Shown here: in pieces, positions 53,620-64,000 of the stretch
Layout of the letters: every line of letters begins with the position of its first letter
Position numbering within the stretch: the first letter of the stretch is position 1
Source: Persephonella hydrogeniphila
Lineage (GTDB): Bacteria > Aquificota > Aquificia > Aquificales > Hydrogenothermaceae
DNA length: 64,000 nucleotides
Direction of reading: 5' to 3'
Assembly: GCF_900215515.1 (NCBI RefSeq)
Contig: NZ_OBEI01000002.1
Span: forward strand, 186,001-250,000
Made by a program: the position numbers and the translations under genes
The notes under the pieces: generated by a model
Told to the model about the DNA's origin: nothing
What the model saw: only the letters and a program-made list of their open reading frames with translations
Databases searched by the model: none

Positions 53620-55374
53620 CTACTTTCCCTTGTACAGTTTCTGGTATGCTCTGTAGTTTGTGTACACATACTTAACATAATACCTTGTTTCTCTAAAAGG
53701 AAGAAACTCTATAAACTCCTCTATATCTCTGATTCTGTTCTTTTTCAGAACTTTTTTTACATTTGCTGGACCACAGTTATACGCTGCCATACTATAAAAT
53801 ATATTACCTCTAAATTTTTTCAGTAGATACTGTATGTACCATCTCCCGTAATCGATATTTTTTTCAGGTATAAAAAGCTGTGTTATATCAAATTTCTTAT
53901 CTTTTCTTTTTTTGGCAATCCATCTGGCAGTAGATGGGATTATCTGCATTAATCCTACAGCATTTGATACAGATATAGCGTAAGGGTTGAAAAAACTTTC
54001 TCTCCTCATAAATGCATACACAAGATTTTTGCTTTCTATATTTTTAAATGGTTTAGGATATGATAGAACTGATATACTGTTGCGGTTTGAGAAATAAACA
54101 GCTGTTAGTTCAGGCATAACAGAGGAGAGAGTTATTTTATCTTTGTTTGTTTTCAAGTAGTACTTTCCTTCTATGTATGCAAATCTGTACAGATATTTTT
54201 TTAGCTTTTCTATCATTCTCAGTTCTCTGTTTTTTGTTATCTTCGGGTCTGAAATCTTGAATAGCTTCCTTTTTAACTTTTCCCTCGCTCTGACTGCGTA
54301 AAAGCTATTTCTTTCTATATCTGCTGCCTTTTTTAGATATATTTCTGCTTTTTTTGTTCCTTTAAAGGAAAGGTATAGCCAGTAGTAGATCTTTTCTTTG
54401 TCTTTGAAGTACCTTTTTCTTTTTTCGAGATATATCCCTGCCTTTTTCCTGTCTTTTTTGTATATTTTCAAAAACCTGTACCATATAACATCTGAATAAA
54501 GGGATGAACTTTCCGGAATAAAACTGCTGTAGTACGAAAAATCTTCCCATTTTTCCCTGTAAAAGGCTCTTTTCATCATAAAATCTGCAGCCTTTATCAT
54601 AAGCTTTTTATTTTTTGTTTCTTTCAGTATCTGAAAAATAGCTCCCTGTATAGGGTATGCAGGATTAATTCTTATCAGTTGATACGCTGCTTCTGCCCTG
54701 TAGTTGTTTTTTAGAAGGATTAGATAACTGAAAGCTTTACTGAAATCTCGAATCCTGCCGTATAAAATAGCCTTGTAAAAAATTTTTCTCTGTGAATTGG
54801 ATAAAAACTCTGTTATGTATAGCGCTCTTTTATACATTCTTTTTCTAATAAGATTTTCAATAGATATGTACAGTTCTTTTTCTGTTAAATCTTTTATTTT
54901 GTTTTTCAGTGTATAAAACCCGTAGTATCGGTTGTAGGGAAAGTGTACAGCTAATTTTTTCTCATATTTTTTGTAACTTTCATCTCCGTTTCTTCTCAGT
55001 ATTTCAGCCTTTAGATAGTAGTAAAAAGGGAGATCTTCTTTTAAAAGGGCTTTTTCGTCTATTTTTTTCAGATAATCTTCTGCCTTTTCAGGCTGTGAAA
55101 ACCTTGTTACAGAAGAAAGGTAAAGGTATGTATAACTGTAGATTGCTGTGTTTTTATATCTTTCTAACTCTTTTAGATAAGGAGTATTCCTTTCATAAAA
55201 ACTGTCTATTAAAATCCTGAAATAAATCGAATACGGATACAATGGCTCATCACTGTTTATCTTCTGAAGGCATCTGTATGCTTCTGTATATTTTTCTTGA
55301 TTAAAAAGCTCTATACATTTTTCGAACCCGAATGAATAACTGAATATGAATAGAATTAGTATTAATTTTTTCAT
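53620..55374 (-). CDS. Soluble lytic murein transglycosylase (Slt70-like)
   Basis: This 584-residue exported enzyme cleaves peptidoglycan glycan strands. It has a signal peptide (KKLILILFIFSYSFG), a long helical superhelix region (about 20-430) and a C-terminal SLT domain. In that domain FMRRESFFNPYAISVSNAVGLMQIIPSTA (near 450-480) contains the catalytic Glu in RRES. The GLMQ(I/L)xPxTA and YNCGPANV motifs confirm the family. Overlap of four bases with the histidine kinase gene upstream suggests co-expression. Confidence 0.92.
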   Translation of the reverse strand: MKKLILILFIFSYSFGFEKCIELFNQEKYTEAYRCLQKINSDEPLYPYSIYFRILIDSFYERNTPYLKELERYKNTAIYSYTYLYLSSVTRFSQPEKAEDYLKKIDEKALLKEDLPFYYYLKAEILRRNGDESYKKYEKKLAVHFPYNRYYGFYTLKNKIKDLTEKELYISIENLIRKRMYKRALYITEFLSNSQRKIFYKAILYGRIRDFSKAFSYLILLKNNYRAEAAYQLIRINPAYPIQGAIFQILKETKNKKLMIKAADFMMKRAFYREKWEDFSYYSSFIPESSSLYSDVIWYRFLKIYKKDRKKAGIYLEKRKRYFKDKEKIYYWLYLSFKGTKKAEIYLKKAADIERNSFYAVRAREKLKRKLFKISDPKITKNRELRMIEKLKKYLYRFAYIEGKYYLKTNKDKITLSSVMPELTAVYFSNRNSISVLSYPKPFKNIESKNLVYAFMRRESFFNPYAISVSNAVGLMQIIPSTARWIAKKRKDKKFDITQLFIPEKNIDYGRWYIQYLLKKFRGNIFYSMAAYNCGPANVKKVLKKNRIRDIEEFIEFLPFRETRYYVKYVYTNYRAYQKLYKGK

Positions 55375-56966
55375 TTTAGCCTGAAGTCTATAATAAACTT
55401 TGTTCCCCTTCCTTCTTCTGTTTCCATGCTTATAGCTCCGTTATGGCTGAATATTATCTTGTACACCATAGGTAGCCCCAGACCTGTACCTTTAGGTTTT
55501 GTTGTAAAAAACGGCTGAAAAATTTTGTCTCTGTGTTCTCTGGATATACCTGTTCCATTGTCTTCAACTATTATCCTTGCAATCTCTCTGTCGCTCATCT
55601 TTATATATTCGGTCTTTATCTTTATAAATTTATCTTTTGAATCTTTTTCTCTAAGGGCATCTATACTATTCAGCACAAGATTGAAAATGACCTGTTTCAT
55701 CAAGTTTTTATCGAAGGAAAAATCTGGTAGTTTTTCATCAAATTCAAGGAGTAGTTTTATATTTTCATAATCCATATCTGGTTTTAGAAGCATAACAGAG
55801 TTATTGATTTCTTTATTTAGATTTCCTTTCTCAAAAACAGGTTCAATAAGCTTTGAAAAATTAAGAAAAGATACAGTCATTTTGTTCAGTCTGTTTACTT
55901 CTTCCTTTATAACTCCGGAGAACTCTCTGACAAGGTCATTTTCTATATTGTTTCTAAGGTAATTTGCTGCATTTCCTATCGCATAAAGGGCGTTTTTTAC
56001 CTCGTGGGCGATTTTCGCACTCATCTCACCCATTGTTGCCATACAGTTAAGTGTTTCTCTTTCTCTGTGGGCTTCATCTAACTTTCTCAGGTATTCTTTT
56101 AATGAGGCTACCATCATGTAGAATGAGTAATTTAGCTGGTGTATTTCATCTCCTGAAAGTTGCTTAAATTTTTCGCAAACCGAGCATTCTTTGAGGGATT
56201 TATCTCCAAGGGACAACAGTATATCTCCTGCATTTTCAGATATCAGCCAGCAAGCCTCTGATATTTCTTTTATGCATTTTTTATCTGGATTTATTGCATC
56301 TACAGGTTTTAGGTCAATCTCAGAACTATCAATATATGTTGTTGTTATCTTTGTTATCTTATTTTTGAGATTTATGAGAGGTTTTACCATATATCCAGAT
56401 ATAACAAAAACACCGGCGAAAGACACAAGAATAACCAGAGATGCTATCGCAAGTGTCTGGAGCAGTATCTTGAGTATTTCTCTATCTATTGTGTACTTCA
56501 GTATATCGAGATTGTATTTGGAGACAACAAATCCTATATTTTCTGTATCTATTTTAACAGGATAGTAAAAGGAAATTATATTTTTATCTTTTTTTATAGC
56601 AGGTTCTTTATTAAACTCTTGTAGTAGTTTTTTGTTTACAAATCCTAAATTTGATATTTCTGTATCTCCTATAATTCTACCGTCAACATCCAGTACAGAA
56701 ACATAAAATACCGAGGGCAGCTCGTCTATCTTTTTTATCATTTCATCAATTTTTTCTAAATTTCTGAGGACAAAGCTGTCTTTATAACTTTCAATAATAT
56801 TTTTTATGTTTTCTACAATATTCTGATTTTTTTCCTTCAAAAGCTTTTGTTCAAAACTGAACGCTGTAAAAAATATAGCTCCAAGGAGTACAAAGAGAAT
56901 ATAAATAGATGTTGCAAGGGCAACTTTCCATCTTATAGATAGCTTTTTAAAGTAATCTAATGTCAT
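55371..56966 (-). CDS. NtrB-like sensor histidine kinase with Cys-rich HAMP-proximal insert
   Basis: This is a 531-residue membrane kinase. Helix 1 (about 15-37) and helix 2 (about 168-192) enclose a periplasmic sensor. After a HAMP-like linker there is an insert with Cys231, Cys239, Cys261 and Cys264 (CxxC), then the dimerisation domain with phospho-acceptor His321 (IAHEVKNALYAIG) and a HATPase domain with DNGTGIS and FFTTKPKGTGLGLPMV. It is the likely partner of the sigma-54 regulator at 58905. It overlaps the SLT gene and lies 3 bases after the PhnD-like gene. The cysteine insert may bind a metal or respond to redox; this is inference. Confidence 0.88.
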   Translation of the reverse strand: MTLDYFKKLSIRWKVALATSIYILFVLLGAIFFTAFSFEQKLLKEKNQNIVENIKNIIESYKDSFVLRNLEKIDEMIKKIDELPSVFYVSVLDVDGRIIGDTEISNLGFVNKKLLQEFNKEPAIKKDKNIISFYYPVKIDTENIGFVVSKYNLDILKYTIDREILKILLQTLAIASLVILVSFAGVFVISGYMVKPLINLKNKITKITTTYIDSSEIDLKPVDAINPDKKCIKEISEACWLISENAGDILLSLGDKSLKECSVCEKFKQLSGDEIHQLNYSFYMMVASLKEYLRKLDEAHRERETLNCMATMGEMSAKIAHEVKNALYAIGNAANYLRNNIENDLVREFSGVIKEEVNRLNKMTVSFLNFSKLIEPVFEKGNLNKEINNSVMLLKPDMDYENIKLLLEFDEKLPDFSFDKNLMKQVIFNLVLNSIDALREKDSKDKFIKIKTEYIKMSDREIARIIVEDNGTGISREHRDKIFQPFFTTKPKGTGLGLPMVYKIIFSHNGAISMETEEGRGTKFIIDFRLK

Positions 56967-56969
56967 AGC

Positions 56970-57788
56970 TTACTGCAGTAAAGGGTATTGGGATAGTATA
57001 TCATTGTAATCCTTTATTATCCTGAACATATCTTTATCTGGTTTTTCGAATCCATCAATACCAAGCCTATTAAGTGTTTTTTTATCCCTTAATGAGTAAA
57101 GTATCTCCATTATTTTTTTCTGCAAATTTTTCGGGAGATCTCCATGGATCGCAACAACATATCTGGGAACATAAGGAGATTTTGCTATTATTTTTATGCC
57201 TTTATTTAAGAACTTTTCGGCACTTTCCTCTTTCACCCCTGCTGCATCTGCAAGACCCGATATAACAGACAGAATTGCAGCTTTATCACTTCCTGAGCTC
57301 CACATATCAGGAATATCGGTGTATTTTATACCGTTCTTACTCAATATATAAAGAGGCATAATACAGTTGCTGGCACATATACTACTTCCAAGGGTAAGTT
57401 TTTTTCCTTTTATATCCTGTACAGAATGTATGTTACTGTCTTTCCTTACTACGATAACACCTGCTTCCATAACATGTCCCTTTATCTTTATGACAGCTGC
57501 CGGTATTACATTATGCTTTTCTTGAATTTTGTAATAAACAACAGGACAGGATATAGATATATCAACTGTATTTTCTTCGTAGAACTGTAAAAGGTCTTTG
57601 TATTTCCCAAATATTTTTAGCTGAATTTCCCTTCCTAATTTCTCAGAGAGGTAAGAAGATAATGCTTTAAATCTTTTGTACTCTTCTACAGGATTTCCAG
57701 AAGAAAGAACGGCCAGAATCAGCCGTTCAGATGCAAAGGAGGAATAAATGAAGATAAAAAAAGCAACGAGCCCTACCGGGAGTTTCAT
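56970..57788 (-). CDS. PhnD-like periplasmic substrate-binding protein
   Basis: This 272-residue protein of the phosphate/phosphite/phosphonate-binding (PhnD, pfam12974) group has a signal peptide (1-20). Where phosphonate binders usually have an STSGYL-type Ser/Thr ligand loop after the DLKGK motif, this protein reads SSICASNCIMP (135-145), placing Cys138 and Cys142 in a CxxxC. Cys81 is a third. No permease or ATPase gene is nearby; instead a sensor kinase follows 3 bases later, so it probably serves as a sensor subunit. Related PhnD-like domains sense tetrathionate or thiosulfate in TtrS/ThsS kinases, which suggests a sulfur oxyanion here. Confidence 0.85.
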   Translation of the reverse strand: MKLPVGLVAFFIFIYSSFASERLILAVLSSGNPVEEYKRFKALSSYLSEKLGREIQLKIFGKYKDLLQFYEENTVDISISCPVVYYKIQEKHNVIPAAVIKIKGHVMEAGVIVVRKDSNIHSVQDIKGKKLTLGSSICASNCIMPLYILSKNGIKYTDIPDMWSSGSDKAAILSVISGLADAAGVKEESAEKFLNKGIKIIAKSPYVPRYVVAIHGDLPKNLQKKIMEILYSLRDKKTLNRLGIDGFEKPDKDMFRIIKDYNDILSQYPLLQ

Positions 57789-58297
57789 TTTTTCTTACCG
57801 TATTTTTCTTTTACCGGTTTAAAATTATGCACTATCGCCGGAACTAATCTGTAACCTTCTTCCTGTAAAGCTGCAAGCTTTGCAACACCTGCAGGGGTAA
57901 GTATTACAAACGGAAAAAAATCTTCTTTATCAAAACCAAATGCCCTTGCAGCGTTATAACATACATAAAATTTTATCCCGTAACTATCATGGAAATTTTT
58001 CAACCTTTCTACTGTTTTCTGGAATACTTTTTCGTTTTGCTTGGCAAAGACAGGTATTTCTGCTCCATGACTTACAATAACAATTTCTACCTCTTCAAGG
58101 GGGGCATACTCTGAGTAAGCTTTAAGGTGGTTCCTTATATAATTGAGAGCTTTATCTACCGCCTCTGGTCCTTGGAGATTCCAGTCGTAAACAACTTTTA
58201 CAGAAGGATAAGTGCTTTCTGAGATCTCAAGTTTTGCTCCTTTTTCTTCTCCAGAAGCGAATAAAAATACAAGAAGGAAAACTATCAATACCTTCAT
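57785..58297 (-). CDS. Exported DsrE-like protein 1
   Basis: This 170-residue DsrE-superfamily protein has an N-terminal signal (FLLVFLFASG). DsrE/TusD-like proteins carry sulfane sulfur on a conserved Cys; here Cys113 in FYVCYNAARAFGF is in the expected place. The VEIVIVSHGAEIP strand-loop and the C-terminal TPAGVAKLAALQEEGYRLVP are typical of the exported DsrE-like group. It overlaps the PhnD-like gene by four bases and follows a second DsrE-like gene by 11 bases. Confidence 0.82.
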   Translation of the reverse strand: MKVLIVFLLVFLFASGEEKGAKLEISESTYPSVKVVYDWNLQGPEAVDKALNYIRNHLKAYSEYAPLEEVEIVIVSHGAEIPVFAKQNEKVFQKTVERLKNFHDSYGIKFYVCYNAARAFGFDKEDFFPFVILTPAGVAKLAALQEEGYRLVPAIVHNFKPVKEKYGKKK

Positions 58298-58308
58298 AGT
58301 ACGCCTCC

Positions 58309-58779
58309 TTATTCAAATAGCATATAAGCGTATCCTAGGTTCTGCCAGTGAACTATTCCTTTTAAAGCTGAGTAAACAGGCTTTACGAAAGGGTAAAGGT
58401 TGTCAATTGAAATACCTCTTGCTTTTAATCCAGCTTCACATATCTCAAATTTTACACCGTAGAACTTTACAAGATTCTCAAGCCGTTCCCTGAACTCTTT
58501 TTGCCTTTTCTTCAACTCTTTATCATCCCTGTAAGGAGATTTGTCAAGATTTTTTATGAAAAATTTGTACCCATTTCCATGTACAACAACTACAACTTTT
58601 AGTTCTTTCAGGCTGTTTCTGTAATGCTGAATATTGTTTACAACACCTTTAAGGAGGTAAAACTCGAATTTTTCAATACTTCCTGTCCTAAAATCAATGA
58701 CAACTTTTTCAACTTCTTCTGAGGAAACAGGCAGATACACAAACAAAATAAAAATAATAGATATAAAAAACCTGCCCAT
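58309..58779 (-). CDS. Exported DsrE-like protein 2
   Basis: This 156-residue protein is also of the exported DsrE-like type. It has a signal peptide (ISIIFILFVYLPVSS), strand KVVVVVHGNGYKF, conserved Cys114 in FEICEAGLKARGI and the end VYSALKGIVHWQNLGYAYML. It is related to its neighbour but clearly diverged, so the two may form a heteromer that binds or hands on sulfur in the periplasm. It is the first gene of a - strand run through the PhnD-like protein and the sensor kinase. Confidence 0.82.
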   Translation of the reverse strand: MGRFFISIIFILFVYLPVSSEEVEKVVIDFRTGSIEKFEFYLLKGVVNNIQHYRNSLKELKVVVVVHGNGYKFFIKNLDKSPYRDDKELKKRQKEFRERLENLVKFYGVKFEICEAGLKARGISIDNLYPFVKPVYSALKGIVHWQNLGYAYMLFE

Positions 58780-58904: not shown

Positions 58905-60239
58905 ATGGGGTACAGAGTATTATTAATAGATGATGAGGAGAGTATTCTTAAAGTAATAAAGAAATTTCTTGAAGATAAAGGCTTTTACGTAGATACAGCA
59001 AAAACAAAGTCTCAGGCACTGAATCAAATATCCCGCTGTAATTACAGTATTATACTGAGTGATTTCAGATTACCTGATGGAACAGGGATAGATATATTAG
59101 AGGATTTTAGAAAGAGAGACAAAGAAACACCATTTGTGATAATAACAGCCTATGGTTCAATAAATGGAGCTGTCGAAGCTATACAGAAAGGAGCTTCCCA
59201 TTATATTGCAAAACCAATTGATGCTGAGAATCTTCTGAAGATAATTCAGTTTTTGATACAGAAAAAAGAAAAAAAAGGATTTGATAGTAAAGAGGAGTTT
59301 GCAGGAATAATAGGAAGATCTCCTCTGATGAGAGAGCTTTTTAAAGAGATAGATATAGTGAGCAAAAGTGAATCTACCGTCCTTATAGAAGGAGAAAGCG
59401 GAACGGGTAAAGAGCTTGTGGCTAAAGCTATTCATAAGCTTTCAAAAAGAAAAGACAAGCCTTTCGTAGCGGTGAACTGCTCAGCTATTCCTGTAGAGCT
59501 TTTTGAAAATGAACTTTTTGGGCACGAGAAAGGTGCCTATACTGGTGCTGTTGGGCAGGGAAAGGGAAAGATAGAGCTTGCAGGAGAAGGAACTCTTTTT
59601 CTTGATGAGATAGGAGAGTTAGATCTTGTTTTACAGGCCAAGCTGTTAAGGGTATTGCAGGAAAAGGAATTCTATAGATTAGGAGGCTCAAAAACAGTTC
59701 CTGTCAAGTGCAGGATAATAGCTGCTACAAATAGAGATTTAGAAAAGATGGTATCCGAAGGAAAATTTAGAGAAGACCTATTTTATAGAATCAATGTGGT
59801 TCATCTTAAAGTTCCTCCTCTCAGGGCAAGGAAAGAAGATATTCCCCTCCTCGCAAAACACTTTCTTAAAAAATACAGTGAGATAAACGGGAAAAACATA
59901 CTTGATATAGATAGAGAGGCTGTTGAGATATTGATGAACTATGAGTGGAAGGGAAATGTTAGAGAGTTGGAGAATGCGATAGAGAGGGCTGTTGTTATGT
60001 GCCAGCAGGATATTATCCTACCTGAACATCTTCCACCGAGAATAACAGGTGCAGACAAAAGAAAAGATGAATATGATTTCTCTGGTGAAATAAATCTTTT
60101 AGAGTTAGAAAAAAAAGTAATACTAAAGGTATTAGAAGAAACCGGATGGAATCAAACAAAGACAGCTGAGAAATTGGGTATATCCAGAAAACAACTCAGG
60201 ACAAAAATGAAAAACTTTGGTCTACTACGGACATCTTAA
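58905..60239 (+). CDS. Sigma-54-dependent response regulator (NtrC family)
   Basis: This 444-residue activator has a receiver domain (1-120) with phospho-acceptor Asp53 (IILSDFRLPDG), then an AAA+ domain with Walker A GESGTGKE (163-170). Its sigma-54 contact loop is GAYTGA (210-215), a Tyr version of GAFTGA. Walker B is LFLDEIGE and an Arg finger region follows. The C-terminal Fis-type helix-turn-helix (about 410-440) is WNQTKTAEKLGISRKQLRTKM. It opens sigma-54 promoters after phosphorylation. Its gene is divergent from the DsrE-PhnD-kinase operon and directly upstream of sox, with two dyads and a -24/-12 promoter right after its stop codon. Confidence 0.95.
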   Translation: MGYRVLLIDDEESILKVIKKFLEDKGFYVDTAKTKSQALNQISRCNYSIILSDFRLPDGTGIDILEDFRKRDKETPFVIITAYGSINGAVEAIQKGASHYIAKPIDAENLLKIIQFLIQKKEKKGFDSKEEFAGIIGRSPLMRELFKEIDIVSKSESTVLIEGESGTGKELVAKAIHKLSKRKDKPFVAVNCSAIPVELFENELFGHEKGAYTGAVGQGKGKIELAGEGTLFLDEIGELDLVLQAKLLRVLQEKEFYRLGGSKTVPVKCRIIAATNRDLEKMVSEGKFREDLFYRINVVHLKVPPLRARKEDIPLLAKHFLKKYSEINGKNILDIDREAVEILMNYEWKGNVRELENAIERAVVMCQQDIILPEHLPPRITGADKRKDEYDFSGEINLLELEKKVILKVLEETGWNQTKTAEKLGISRKQLRTKMKNFGLLRTS

Positions 60240-60240
60240 C

Positions 60241-60256
60241 TGTCCCAAATGGAACA
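60241..60256. promoter_or_regulatory. Upstream activator dyad 1 for sox
   Basis: TGTCCC-AAAT-GGAACA is a near-perfect 16-base dyad (one mismatch between half-sites), starting 2 bases after the regulator stop codon. It matches dyad 2 at 60274 and is centred about 140 bases upstream of the expected sox start. Confidence 0.7.
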
Positions 60257-60273
60257 GTAAACAGATATTAAAC

Positions 60274-60289
60274 TGTCCTAAAAGGAACA
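60274..60289. promoter_or_regulatory. Upstream activator dyad 2 for sox
   Basis: TGTCCT-AAAA-GGAACA repeats the design of dyad 1 with 33 bases between centres, about three helical turns, so both would lie on nearly the same face of DNA. It is centred about 107 bases upstream of the expected start, a standard distance for a sigma-54 activator. Confidence 0.7.
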
Positions 60290-60362
60290 ACTCCTGATAT
60301 TAGTCTGTCTATTAAGTCTATTTTTCATTTTATTCCAATAACTTAGAAGATGGCACTCTTTT

Positions 60363-60378
60363 TGGCATATCTATTGCA
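60363..60378 (+). promoter_or_regulatory. Sigma-54 (-24/-12) promoter of the sox operon
   Basis: TGGCAT-N5-TTGCA has GG and GC at the required spacing (GG at 60364-60365, GC at 60376-60377). Transcription would start near 60389, 25 bases before the soxX ATG, with GGAGG (60402-60406) in between. A second TGGCAC at 60351 overlaps but does not have the right spacing to a GC. Confidence 0.75.
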
Positions 60379-60413: not shown

Positions 60414-60938
60414 ATGAGAATGAATTATCTTTACAGCCTGATTGCAGGGGTTATTGGCTTACTTCTGATAACAGCTGATTCTAAAGCTGGAAAAATAGAG
60501 TTTGAGCATCCTGATGCAAAAGAGATAATGCTTAAAGATATTCCTCCTGGACCAAGACATTATGCTATCCCGTCAAACTGCAAACTGGATAATCCTGATT
60601 TTATCAAAAAGATGGCTCCAAAAGGGAAAAAACTTTTTAACAACAAAAAAGCCGCCAACTGTGTTGCCTGTCACTGTGCTCCCGGTTCAAAAGGATGTGG
60701 AAATATAGGACCAAATCTTGCCCACTATAAAAATACACTTATGAAAGCTCCTTATCTTGGAGGACAGAAAAAAACAGTTTCATGGCTTTTTCAGAGAGTT
60801 GCCGATTACAGAGTTCAGATACCACCTGAGTATAAAAATGAACCTTATTTCAACATAATGACTGTTAACCTTACAACAGGAAAGCTCTCTTACGACGATG
60901 TATGTGCTATAACAGCATTCCTTTTAACTCTGGAGTAA
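60414..60938 (+). CDS. soxX: Sulfur oxidation c-type cytochrome SoxX
   Basis: SoxX with SoxA attaches thiosulfate to the SoxY carrier in the periplasm and takes up the electrons. The 174 residues have a signal peptide (about 1-25), one heme site CVACH (Cys83, Cys86, His87) followed by a Cys-rich CAPGSKGCGNIGPNL, and a likely distal heme ligand Met149 in FNIMTVN. It is the first gene of the sox operon, behind the sigma-54 promoter. A thioredoxin-like gene follows after 3 bases. Confidence 0.93.
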   Translation: MRMNYLYSLIAGVIGLLLITADSKAGKIEFEHPDAKEIMLKDIPPGPRHYAIPSNCKLDNPDFIKKMAPKGKKLFNNKKAANCVACHCAPGSKGCGNIGPNLAHYKNTLMKAPYLGGQKKTVSWLFQRVADYRVQIPPEYKNEPYFNIMTVNLTTGKLSYDDVCAITAFLLTLE

Positions 60939-60941
60939 AGG

Positions 60942-61379
60942 ATGAGATCTGTTGTTGTTTTCCTTCTTTTAGTCTTTAGCATTTCTTATGGAGATGTAAA
61001 GTGGTACGGATTAAACGATGGATTTAAAAAAGCTCAAAAGGAGAAAAAGTTGGTGATGATTTATATCTATTCTCCGAAATGCCATTACTGCAAGGAGATG
61101 GATGCAACAACATTTAAGGATAAAAAAGTACAGGATACGATAAACAGGTATTTTGTACCTATTAAGGTTAGAAAGTGCAGTGAAGACGGGATGTTTGTGA
61201 GGGCTGAATACGGATACCTTGGTACTCCAACGTTCCACTTTATTACACCGACTGGAGAAAAGATAAAAAGTATCTTTGGGGCATGGCCTAAAGAGGACTT
61301 TTTAAAAATCCTCAAGTATTTCTATTCAGGGGCTTATAAAACAAAGCCTATGACAGAGTACTTTATGGAAGAACAATAA
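60942..61379 (+). CDS. Thioredoxin-like protein in the sox operon (SoxW-like)
   Basis: This 145-residue exported protein has a signal peptide (about 1-17) and a thioredoxin fold with active site CHYC (Cys47, Cys50) and the cis-Pro loop LGTPTFHF. It resembles the periplasmic thioredoxins (SoxW/SoxS, thioredoxin_7) that keep the SoxY thiol reduced and usable. CHYC instead of CGPC suggests a tuned redox potential. It sits between soxX and soxY with short gaps. Confidence 0.85.
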   Translation: MRSVVVFLLLVFSISYGDVKWYGLNDGFKKAQKEKKLVMIYIYSPKCHYCKEMDATTFKDKKVQDTINRYFVPIKVRKCSEDGMFVRAEYGYLGTPTFHFITPTGEKIKSIFGAWPKEDFLKILKYFYSGAYKTKPMTEYFMEEQ

Positions 61380-61396: not shown

Positions 61397-61858
61397 ATGA
61401 ACAGAAGAAAATTTCTGAAGATGACAGCTGTTGCAGGGGCTGTCGTTGCAGTAAGTCCATCAATACCTGTTGACAGCTTTAAGGTTAACGCCCAGCCCAA
61501 AAAAAGAAGCTTCGAAGATGCTTTAAAGGAAATAACTAAGGGTAAAACTCCGGTGGAAGCACCAAATGAGGTAAAACTTATAGCCCCATCTATAGCTGAG
61601 AACGGAGCCGTTGTTCCTATAAAAGTTGAAGTAAAGAAACCGATCAAGGATGTTAAAGCAATACATATACTTGCAGACAAAAACTTTGATCCGTGGACGT
61701 GTAGTGTTCATCTAACTCCTCAAAATGGAAAACCTTATTTTGCTACAAGAATCAGACTTGCAAAAACAATGAATGTTTATGCTGTTGCAGAGCTTTCTGA
61801 CGGTTCATTCATAATGACAAAAAAGCCTGTAAAAGTCACTATAGGTGGATGTGGTTAA
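61397..61858 (+). CDS. soxY: Thiosulfate oxidation carrier protein SoxY
   Basis: SoxY carries sulfur intermediates on a C-terminal Cys. The 153 residues have a twin-arginine signal (NRRKFLKMTAVAGAVV), an Ig-like beta-sandwich and the C-terminal swinging arm. The arm ends VTIGGCG (Cys152) and the stop follows at once, whereas the usual SoxY ends GGCGG. Ribosome site AGGAGG is strong. It acts as a pair with SoxZ. Confidence 0.93.
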   Translation: MNRRKFLKMTAVAGAVVAVSPSIPVDSFKVNAQPKKRSFEDALKEITKGKTPVEAPNEVKLIAPSIAENGAVVPIKVEVKKPIKDVKAIHILADKNFDPWTCSVHLTPQNGKPYFATRIRLAKTMNVYAVAELSDGSFIMTKKPVKVTIGGCG

Positions 61859-61882: not shown

Positions 61883-62212
61883 ATGGCGAGAACAGCTTTA
61901 ATAAAACTCAGACCAAGAAGATATAAAAAAGGAGACCTTGTAAGAGTTGATTCTGTTATTATGCACCCTATGCATACAGGTCTTGTTAAAGACAAGAAAA
62001 CAGGAAAAATCATACCTCCCCATTATATAACAAAGGTTGAGGTTTATTACGGAGACGAACTTGTGACATCAATTGATGTAAATGCATCTGTCAGTGCTAA
62101 CCCTTACTTCTCATTCTATATAAAGGCTGATAAAACAGCTCCTCTAAAAATGGTATGGAAGGATAATAAAGGGGAAGTGACTGAAAAAACTGTAAAAATC
62201 AAGCCACATTAA
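61883..62212 (+). CDS. soxZ: Thiosulfate oxidation carrier complex protein SoxZ
   Basis: SoxZ is the small beta-sandwich partner of SoxY. The 109 residues have no signal peptide, as usual, since SoxZ is exported with Tat-targeted SoxY. The family pattern LIKLRPRRYKKGDLVRVDSVIMHPMHTGL and the C-terminal WKDNKGEVTEKT are clear. A GGAGG lies 7 bases before the ATG. Confidence 0.95.
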   Translation: MARTALIKLRPRRYKKGDLVRVDSVIMHPMHTGLVKDKKTGKIIPPHYITKVEVYYGDELVTSIDVNASVSANPYFSFYIKADKTAPLKMVWKDNKGEVTEKTVKIKPH

Positions 62213-62223
62213 GGAGGGTAAAG

Positions 62224-63021
62224 ATGAGGATGAAATATATTTTTTTAGGCTTGTCAGCGGCTCTTTTTACAGGAGCTTTAGCTGAAGAAGCAGGACAGGC
62301 TATATCTCCTGAAGACTGGAAGCTTTACGAAGAAGGAATTAATCCCGGTGAGGTCTTTGCTGAAGAAGTAGGAGGAACCCTTTTTGAAAAACCTATGGGA
62401 CCCAAAAAAATATCCTGTGCCTCCTGCCATGCAAAAAATGGAGATATAGAAGAGAGAGTGGCAACAGCTGCAGCCTACTATCCTAAATACGACAAAGATG
62501 CAGGGATGATAATAAACTTAGAACAGAGAATCCAGATATGCCAGTCAAAACATATGGATATGAAACCTTTTAAACTAAAAAGCAAGGAAAATACAGCTAT
62601 CACAACATACCTGTACTACCTTGCACAGGGAACAAAGATAAATGTTGATACCCAATCTCCAATGGCGAAAGAGTACCTCAAATACGGAAGGTATATTTTC
62701 ACATTGAAAAGAGGTGTAAGGAATCTTTCCTGTCAGGTATGTCATGAGTTTGCTGCCGGAAAAGTTCTCAGAATGCAGTGGCTTAAACCACTGGGATTTG
62801 AGTACAACGGTATAAAAGGAACAACAGCAGCAGATCACTGGCCTGCTTTCAGAATGACAAAAAATAAAGTCCAGACATTACAGCAGAGATTTCAGGGCTG
62901 TCAGAAACAGGGAGGACAGAAAAAACTTCCTCTCGGTTCTAAGGAGATGGTAGCCCTTGAACTGTATGTAAAATCCCTCTCAAACGGAGCAGAACTGAAA
63001 ACACCTGGGTTGAGAAGATAG
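62224..63021 (+). CDS. soxA: Diheme c-type cytochrome SoxA
   Basis: SoxA is the catalytic partner of SoxX. The 265 residues have a signal peptide (about 1-20) and two heme sites, CASCH (65-69) and CQVCH (170-174), so this is the diheme form. Cys106 (QICQSKHM) would ligate the first heme. Cys226 in RFQGCQKQ is the active-site ligand that becomes a persulfide, equivalent to the RCxGC motif. A GGAGGG ribosome site precedes the ATG. Confidence 0.94.
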   Translation: MRMKYIFLGLSAALFTGALAEEAGQAISPEDWKLYEEGINPGEVFAEEVGGTLFEKPMGPKKISCASCHAKNGDIEERVATAAAYYPKYDKDAGMIINLEQRIQICQSKHMDMKPFKLKSKENTAITTYLYYLAQGTKINVDTQSPMAKEYLKYGRYIFTLKRGVRNLSCQVCHEFAAGKVLRMQWLKPLGFEYNGIKGTTAADHWPAFRMTKNKVQTLQQRFQGCQKQGGQKKLPLGSKEMVALELYVKSLSNGAELKTPGLRR

Positions 63022-63030
63022 GAGGATAAG

Positions 63031-64000
63031 ATGAATCTGAGCAGAAGAGATTTTTTAGAACTTGCAGCTATAGCCGGTATTTCACTAACAGGGGGAAATG
63101 CCCTTGCCCAACTAAACAAGCTTTCTCCTGAAAAATTGATGGAGTTTAGACCGGTTGGAAATGTTACACTCCTTCATATATGTGATATGCATGCCCATCT
63201 CAAACCTCTTTACTGGAGGGAACCATCAACCCTTCTTTCTCATCCATCTCTTGTAGGAGAACCGGGATTTTTATGCGGTAAAGCTTTTCTTGAGTATTAC
63301 GGTATAAAACCAGGAACTCTGAGGGCTTACTTTGATACATACATAGATTTTGAGGAGCTCGCCCACAAATACGGAAAAATGGGTGGTGCTGCCTACATGG
63401 CAACTCTTGTTAAGCAGATAATAGCAGAAAGAGGAAAAGATAAGGTTCTTTTTATGGATTCAGGAGATACATGGCAGGGAACTGCCGTTGCTCTATTCAC
63501 AAAGGGAAAAGCTATAGTTGATGTCCAGAATGCCCTTGGAATAGATGTAATGGTAGGACACTGGGAGTTTACATATGGTAAGGAAAGAGTGCTTGAACTT
63601 GTGGAGAACCATCTGAAAGCAGATTTTATAGCCCAGAATATCGCCGATGAGATGTGGGAAGAGCTTGTTTTCGCCCCTTATGTAATAAAAGAAGTTGGTG
63701 GTACAAAGATAGGTATAATCGGAAATGCATTTCCTTACACACCTATAGCAAATCCAAAACAGTTTACACAGGGATGGACTTTTGGTATTCAGCCTGAAAG
63801 ACTCCAGCAGTTTGTTAACGAACTGAGGGAGGAAAAGAAGGTAGATCTTGTTGTTTTACTATCCCATGATGGATTTGCACTGGATCAGGCTCTGGCAAAG
63901 ATGATCAAAGGCATAGATATCATCTTCAGTGGTCATACACATGACCCTGCTCCAAAGCCGATATTTGTAAATAACACAATGATAGTAATAGCTGGCTCCC
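63031..64000 (+). CDS. soxB: Thiosulfohydrolase SoxB (3' end cut by window)
   Basis: SoxB cleaves sulfate from the SoxY-bound intermediate with two metal ions. The frame is open from the ATG to the last base, giving 323 residues of a protein usually about 560 long. It has a twin-arginine signal (SRRDFLELAAIAG) and the metallophosphatase-type motifs ICDMHAHL, DSGDTWQG, GHWEFTYG, LSHDG and SGHTHD. GHWEFTYG replaces the GNHEFDYG of ordinary 5'-nucleotidases, as SoxB does. AGGAGG lies 6 bases before the start. Confidence 0.95.
   Translation, partial: MNLSRRDFLELAAIAGISLTGGNALAQLNKLSPEKLMEFRPVGNVTLLHICDMHAHLKPLYWREPSTLLSHPSLVGEPGFLCGKAFLEYYGIKPGTLRAYFDTYIDFEELAHKYGKMGGAAYMATLVKQIIAERGKDKVLFMDSGDTWQGTAVALFTKGKAIVDVQNALGIDVMVGHWEFTYGKERVLELVENHLKADFIAQNIADEMWEELVFAPYVIKEVGGTKIGIIGNAFPYTPIANPKQFTQGWTFGIQPERLQQFVNELREEKKVDLVVLLSHDGFALDQALAKMIKGIDIIFSGHTHDPAPKPIFVNNTMIVIAGS

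Follow-up and report, generated by a model that had tools for sequence, protein, structure and literature searches.

What controls the sox genes of Persephonella hydrogeniphila, and are the sites for this control located in the short gap between a regulator gene and soxX? We analysed a window of 64,000 nt (the whole stretch of DNA under study), in which 174 bases separate the regulator gene from the soxX ATG at position 60414. Two dyads in this gap would let the adjacent regulator activate the soxX operon via sigma-54, which would make the gap the sox control region. We assign a probability of about 0.92 to this reading. A TspR-type switch for sox genes is known from acid-loving sulfur bacteria; new is its predicted extension to the Aquificota.

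The gap harbors two candidate activator dyads, TGTCCCAAATGGAACA and TGTCCTAAAAGGAACA, and a predicted -24/-12 promoter, TTGGCATATCTATTGCA (Table 1). The first-pass annotation had described two copies of TGTYCC-N4-GGAACA. Both dyads are real, but the second copy reads TGTCCT, and the corrected motif is TGTCCY-N4-GGAACA. Direct reading confirmed the geometry described there: the dyads are 33 bases apart, the first one starts at the second base past the regulator stop codon, and the promoter, noted as a properly spaced TGGCAT-N5-TTGCA, is present with 12 bp between its GG and GC. Measured from the -24 GG, the centre of dyad 1 is located about 115 bp and that of dyad 2 about 82 bp upstream, within the 80-120 bases that had been claimed. 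These dimensions would suit an enhancer that holds two dimers in phase, 82-115 bp away from the GG of the promoter. The pattern TGTYCY-N4-RGRACA occurred twice in the window versus 0.06 expected, and 0 of 100 shuffles reached two. TTGGCA-N6-TTGC occurred once and is expected 0.13 times per window; the promoter by itself is therefore weak evidence.

Table 1. Features of the window and, in the last three lines, candidate small RNA loci of relatives (positions in the respective locus).
Feature	Position	Strand	Basis or remark
Membrane histidine kinase, probable TspS-type partner	55371-56966	-	HisKA and HATPase_c
PhnD-family periplasmic binding protein, probable signal receptor	56970-57788	-	PF12974, E 2.9e-53
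DsrE-family protein, signal-peptide-like N-terminus	57785-58297	-	PF02635
Second DsrE-family protein, signal-peptide-like N-terminus	58309-58779	-	PF02635
Regulator, TspR-type: receiver, sigma-54 AAA+, Fis-type HTH	58905-60239	+	Pfam, orthologues, helix ISRKQLRTKM
Regulator stop codon TAA	60237-60239		read directly
Activator dyad 1 (candidate)	60241-60256	not assigned	begins second base past stop
Activator dyad 2 (candidate)	60274-60289	not assigned	33 bp from dyad 1
-24/-12 (sigma-54) promoter of soxX, predicted	60362-60378	+	conserved in relatives
soxX, cytochrome c, first gene of predicted controlled operon	60414-60938	+	PF00034; position before soxY, soxZ, soxA
Thioredoxin-like gene	60942-61379	+	PF13098
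soxY	61397-61858	+	PF13501
soxZ	61883-62212	+	PF08770
soxA	62224-63021	+	PF21342
soxB, continues beyond window	63031-64000	+	open frame; named by position and 5'-nucleotidase-like motifs
Candidate small RNA, L196, L199, L205, L216, L218, L220, L222	1366-1515	-	
Candidate small RNA, L198	220-369	-	
Candidate small RNA, L197; L208	1568-1717; 1600-1749	+	

The gene order regulator-soxX-trx-soxYZA(B) places the regulator upstream of a sox cluster that starts with soxX. The regulator matched PF00072, PF00158 and PF02954, each above the cut-off. On the other strand, the two neighboring DsrE-family genes (57785-58779) share a divergent operon with the genes for the PhnD-type receptor and the kinase. 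The relatives of the PhnD-family protein with solved structures included PtxB, ArrX and HtxB and, weakly, an AioX-type protein. The kinase has 28% identity over its full length to a kinase encoded beside a TspR-like gene in Nitrospiraceae. Its sensor domain matched sCache_3_2 weakly (E 0.15), and the related Nitrospiraceae kinase matched this domain at 4e-11. An sCache_3_2 sensor domain is reported for TspS.

The dyads were conserved among relatives and travelled with soxX even away from the regulator. Orthologues of the regulator were present in 24 relatives (66-88% identity), together with one decayed copy, and stood well clear of most paralogues, whose full-length identity was about 47% or less. 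SoxX was found in 27 genomes of the Hydrogenothermaceae, counting that of the window, and the dyad pair followed by a -24/-12 site was present at 24 of the 27 soxX loci; these loci are mutually non-independent, and the weaker second sites in G002-G004, G007, G008 and G013 are less certain. Outside the 24 were the loci of G005 (pair at the end of another contig, L012), G026 (no upstream sequence) and G037 (interrupted). All 25 relatives with intact and sequenced DNA upstream of soxX had the pair. It was kept where soxX adjoins the regulator and also where soxX sits elsewhere in the genome. Since soxX and the pair are not adjacent to the regulator in many relatives, we concluded that the sites serve soxX. 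Within the 136 Aquificota genomes the tandem motif was found at 15 places, 13 of them before soxX, and the reversed control gave 0.

The spacing of the dyads was 32-35 bp in 13 loci, 21-23 bp in 11 loci and 31 bp in G005. Intermediate spacings were absent, though 18-40 bp was permitted in the search. The spacings would thus correspond to about two or three helix turns. This strengthened the earlier view that the phasing is close to three turns, with the addition that relatives use either about two or about three.

Two genomes show decay or interruption at this locus. The regulator and soxX of G015 (L027, L178/L179) are both stop-ridden or broken, and the dyads and the promoter are still intact. 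G037 lacks TspR, and its intact pair and its soxX, each on a different contig, are separated by a TnpB-type element; in L171 and L193/L219 this IS200/IS605-like element splits the dyads and the promoter from the soxX side. G037 is a natural break of the circuit.

We built a weight matrix from 32 dyads of relatives, with the sites of the window excluded, and scanned 1.92 Mb of the 2.00 Mb genome (96%). Dyad 1 (25.5 bits) and dyad 2 (20.4 bits) ranked first and second, and no other strong dyad in the scanned 1.92 Mb had a full-consensus -24/-12 site at a distance of 30-150 bp. The predicted regulon would therefore be essentially the sox operon. Single degenerate dyads were not enriched genome-wide (4 versus 6 for the reversed control) and, being at chance level, were rejected as evidence; the case thus stands on the pair, the promoter and the conservation together. 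The exact TGTYCC-N4-GGAACA of the first-pass annotation occurred once in the genome. By their matrix ranks the dyads are not scattered, and what is unique in the genome is the strong tandem pair together with the promoter. The proposal thus withstood both conditions that the first-pass annotation had named as refuting it, lack of conservation in relatives and random occurrence across the genome. The genome encodes RpoN. Conservation, matrix ranks and RpoN make it the best reading that the regulator probably binds the dyads as a sigma-54 activator of soxX, as had been proposed.

What the computations show is the sites and the promoter, their conservation and their uniqueness in the genome, and their co-occurrence with the regulator and with the recognition helix of this protein. 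A helix-turn-helix of the TspR type (E below 1e-16) was found in 26 of 136 Aquificota genomes and the dyad and promoter pattern in 27 of 136, in both cases all Hydrogenothermaceae; the reversed control gave no match. The pattern was present in 25 of the 26 genomes with this HTH versus 2 of the 110 without it (Fisher p=7e-24 for the overlap of 25 genomes, shared ancestry ignored). The exceptions were G002 (regulator with a weaker site), G037 (regulator lost) and G040 (site without regulator). All intact regulator orthologues have the recognition helix GISRKQLRTKM in common. TspR-like proteins of Nitrospirota and of one Desulfobulbaceae genome also carry it, with one S/T variant, and were joined with the TspR of Hydrogenothermaceae in the tree (support 93/87). 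A tandem site like that of the window was found in Desulfobulbaceae L042 (6329-6518) and in Nitrospiraceae L144 (6844-8000) and L096 (5100-6900). In L096 a CTGGCA-N6-TTGC promoter precedes a cluster including a TauE-type exporter and a molybdopterin oxidoreductase. TspR-like regulators in Nitrospirota and Desulfobulbaceae probably control other sulfur genes. In L203 of G011, where TspR was present and soxX was undetected, dyads and a -24/-12 promoter precede a DsrE-family gene and then a porin-like frame, which may represent a further type of target.

From the matches listed in the global contig pattern scan we kept just those few that came with TspR-like genes or with -24/-12 sites. Among the matches listed, most were seemingly unrelated tandem palindromes in Rhodobacteraceae, Bacteroidota and Planctomycetes. 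In these groups (Cypionkella, Tateyamaria and Salipiger among the Rhodobacteraceae), tandem TGTCCC-N4-GGRACA was frequent, often with several copies per genome, and located away from -24/-12 sites; it is probably another operator or a repeat. The 369 genomes sampled from the class of Marinobacterium contained the tandem site only in the seed genome, and a plasmid search retrieved only ordinary paralogues (46% or less).

For Acidithiobacillus caldus, phosphorylated TspR is reported to bind TGTCCCAAATGGGACA before a sox cluster starting with soxX (Li et al. 2017, as described in PMC6335251 and PMC12194929). Dyad 1 has 15 of 16 bases in common with this reported sequence and dyad 2 has 13 of 16 (PMC6335251), a match that the first-pass annotation had not mentioned. 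TGTCCCAAATGGGACA itself, or its reverse complement, was found before soxX in several relatives. Because dyad 1 is one base from TGTCCCAAATGGGACA and the exact form occurs in relatives, the window is predicted to hold a TspR-type sigma-54 sox switch; site and domain layout liken this putative circuit to that of A. caldus TspR. As described, the A. caldus system (sox-II cluster) shares with the window a receiver-AAA+-Fis regulator next to a sox cluster with soxX as first gene, sigma-54 dependence (predicted here) and the TGTCCCAAATGGGACA-like activator site. In contrast to TspS/TspR of A. caldus, the system of the window belongs to another phylum, its kinase is divergent and encoded with a PhnD-type and two DsrE proteins, and a thioredoxin-like gene is located between soxX and soxY.

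Similarities to other sigma-54 systems were also considered. AioR is a sigma-54 activator, and AioX/AioS/AioR and ArrX-type systems resemble the window in having a PhnD-family receptor that is encoded with a kinase and a regulator and plausibly senses an oxyanion. Unlike in AioX/AioS/AioR, the target is sox and not arsenite oxidase, and the sites are of the TspR type; an AioXSR arsenite system was rejected because the genes beside the regulator are sox genes. Upstream activator sites of the NifA type have the form TGT-N10-ACA, with the same letters in the outer half-sites and the same length of 16 bp. The window differs by largely fixed inner CCY/RGR bases, a receiver instead of GAF and sox as target. 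A NifA system (GAF-AAA+-HTH, nif genes) was rejected for this receiver in place of GAF and for the sox neighbors.

We infer the following circuit, both its steps (phosphotransfer, binding, looping and activation) and the nature of its signal. The divergently encoded kinase would phosphorylate the regulator, the TspR of Aquificota. Once phosphorylated, the regulator would occupy both dyads in dimeric form, with the dimers on the same side of the helix, and assemble an AAA+ ring there. A DNA loop of 80-115 bp would then bring this ring into contact with sigma-54 RNA polymerase waiting at the -24/-12 site, and promoter opening for soxX-trx-soxYZAB would be powered by ATP. The input, probably thiosulfate or a related sulfur oxyanion, would be detected by the PhnD-type binding protein. 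PhnD, kinase and TspR likely form one sensory unit, since their genes are contiguous in this order in Sulfurihydrogenibium (L063) and Nitrospiraceae (L144). In TtrS, a PhnD-like domain was proposed to bind tetrathionate, a feature that also served to find thiosulfate sensors (PMC5408782). TtrS and ThsS, sensors of tetrathionate and thiosulfate, resemble the system of the window in this PhnD-like domain, for which one or the other compound was proposed as the ligand (PMC5408782); theirs is part of the kinase, whereas that of the window is a separate protein. Based on the TtrS proposal and on the ArrX/AioX-type relatives, thiosulfate or a similar oxyanion is the likely signal.

The dyads could instead bind another regulator, a different sigma-54 activator or a repressor, with the adjacent regulator working elsewhere. 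G040 has a dyad and promoter without a TspR orthologue, so the site is not strictly bound to the regulator, and unrelated bacteria also have palindromes of such form, where they probably serve other proteins. We consider this explanation unlikely: the ISRKQLRTKM helix was found in 0 of the 6 other EBP-like genes examined in the genome of the window, the sites track the adjacent regulator across the Aquificota, and A. caldus TspR is reported to bind a nearly identical sequence (PMC6335251).

A role of the dyads in repressing soxX or in adjusting expression of the regulator gene itself (acting, for instance, at the 3' end of the regulator transcript), with soxX expressed from another promoter, is suggested by the position of dyad 1 directly behind the regulator stop codon and, in G001, within the last codons of the regulator gene. 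We regard this as very improbable, since in many relatives soxX and the pair are located away from the regulator, and since sites that lie 82-115 bp ahead of a -24/-12 promoter have the geometry of an activator. Least credible of all is that dyads and promoter are a chance or an inherited neutral resemblance. The relatives do have a common ancestry, and single degenerate dyads are at chance level; against this, the sites are conserved and the bases between them are not, genera differ in the spacing by one helical turn, the motif accompanies soxX to other locations, and the same tandem site is also found near TspR-like genes in other phyla. The relatives compared here already contradict neutral resemblance.

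The dyads and -24/-12 promoter head no gene in ten genomes (G001, G003, G004, G005, G013, G016, G034, G036, G038 and G040). A conserved non-coding stretch of about 65-95 nt is present there; it carries the conserved boxes CCTGCTGCT and ACCTACCTCC and ends in a terminator, a hairpin plus T run. No ORF was found in this stretch, and an Rfam search assigned it to no known family. It is located downstream of one shared O-methyltransferase gene in at least 7 genomes. G033 has the stretch and the promoter with a decayed dyad; in G040, which lacks both TspR and soxX, L222 has dyad, promoter and a stretch resembling the small RNA. A candidate in the genome of the window was rejected, as both the promoter and the boxes are missing from the matching locus. 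New ncRNAs were predicted in Aquifex aeolicus by Lechner et al. 2014. The box sequences CCUGCUGCU and ACCUACCUCC are the complement of a Shine-Dalgarno sequence and of the Ala-rich signal-peptide codons behind it; in the genome of the window, several sequences that match the boxes by chance lie antisense to gene starts of this kind. This suggests, without proof, that the candidate small RNA may have targets among exported proteins. We somewhat favor the view that, in Hydrogenothermaceae, a small regulatory RNA is a further target of the TspR-type activator.

With the predicted circuit, a sulfur-oxidation switch known from a few proteobacteria would also operate in the Aquificota, its site and its recognition helix being preserved between phyla. 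The locus would provide a defined operator and promoter for studying thiosulfate sensing by vent chemolithotrophs. It also offers a natural record of enhancer turnover, with spacings of two or three turns, moves together with soxX, the decay in G015 and the inserted element in G037. Finally, it brings to light a candidate small RNA that would depend on sigma-54. In vibrios, the Qrr RNAs are transcribed under sigma-54; if the small RNA is confirmed as a target, induction of sox would be coupled in a similar way to post-transcriptional control of exported proteins.
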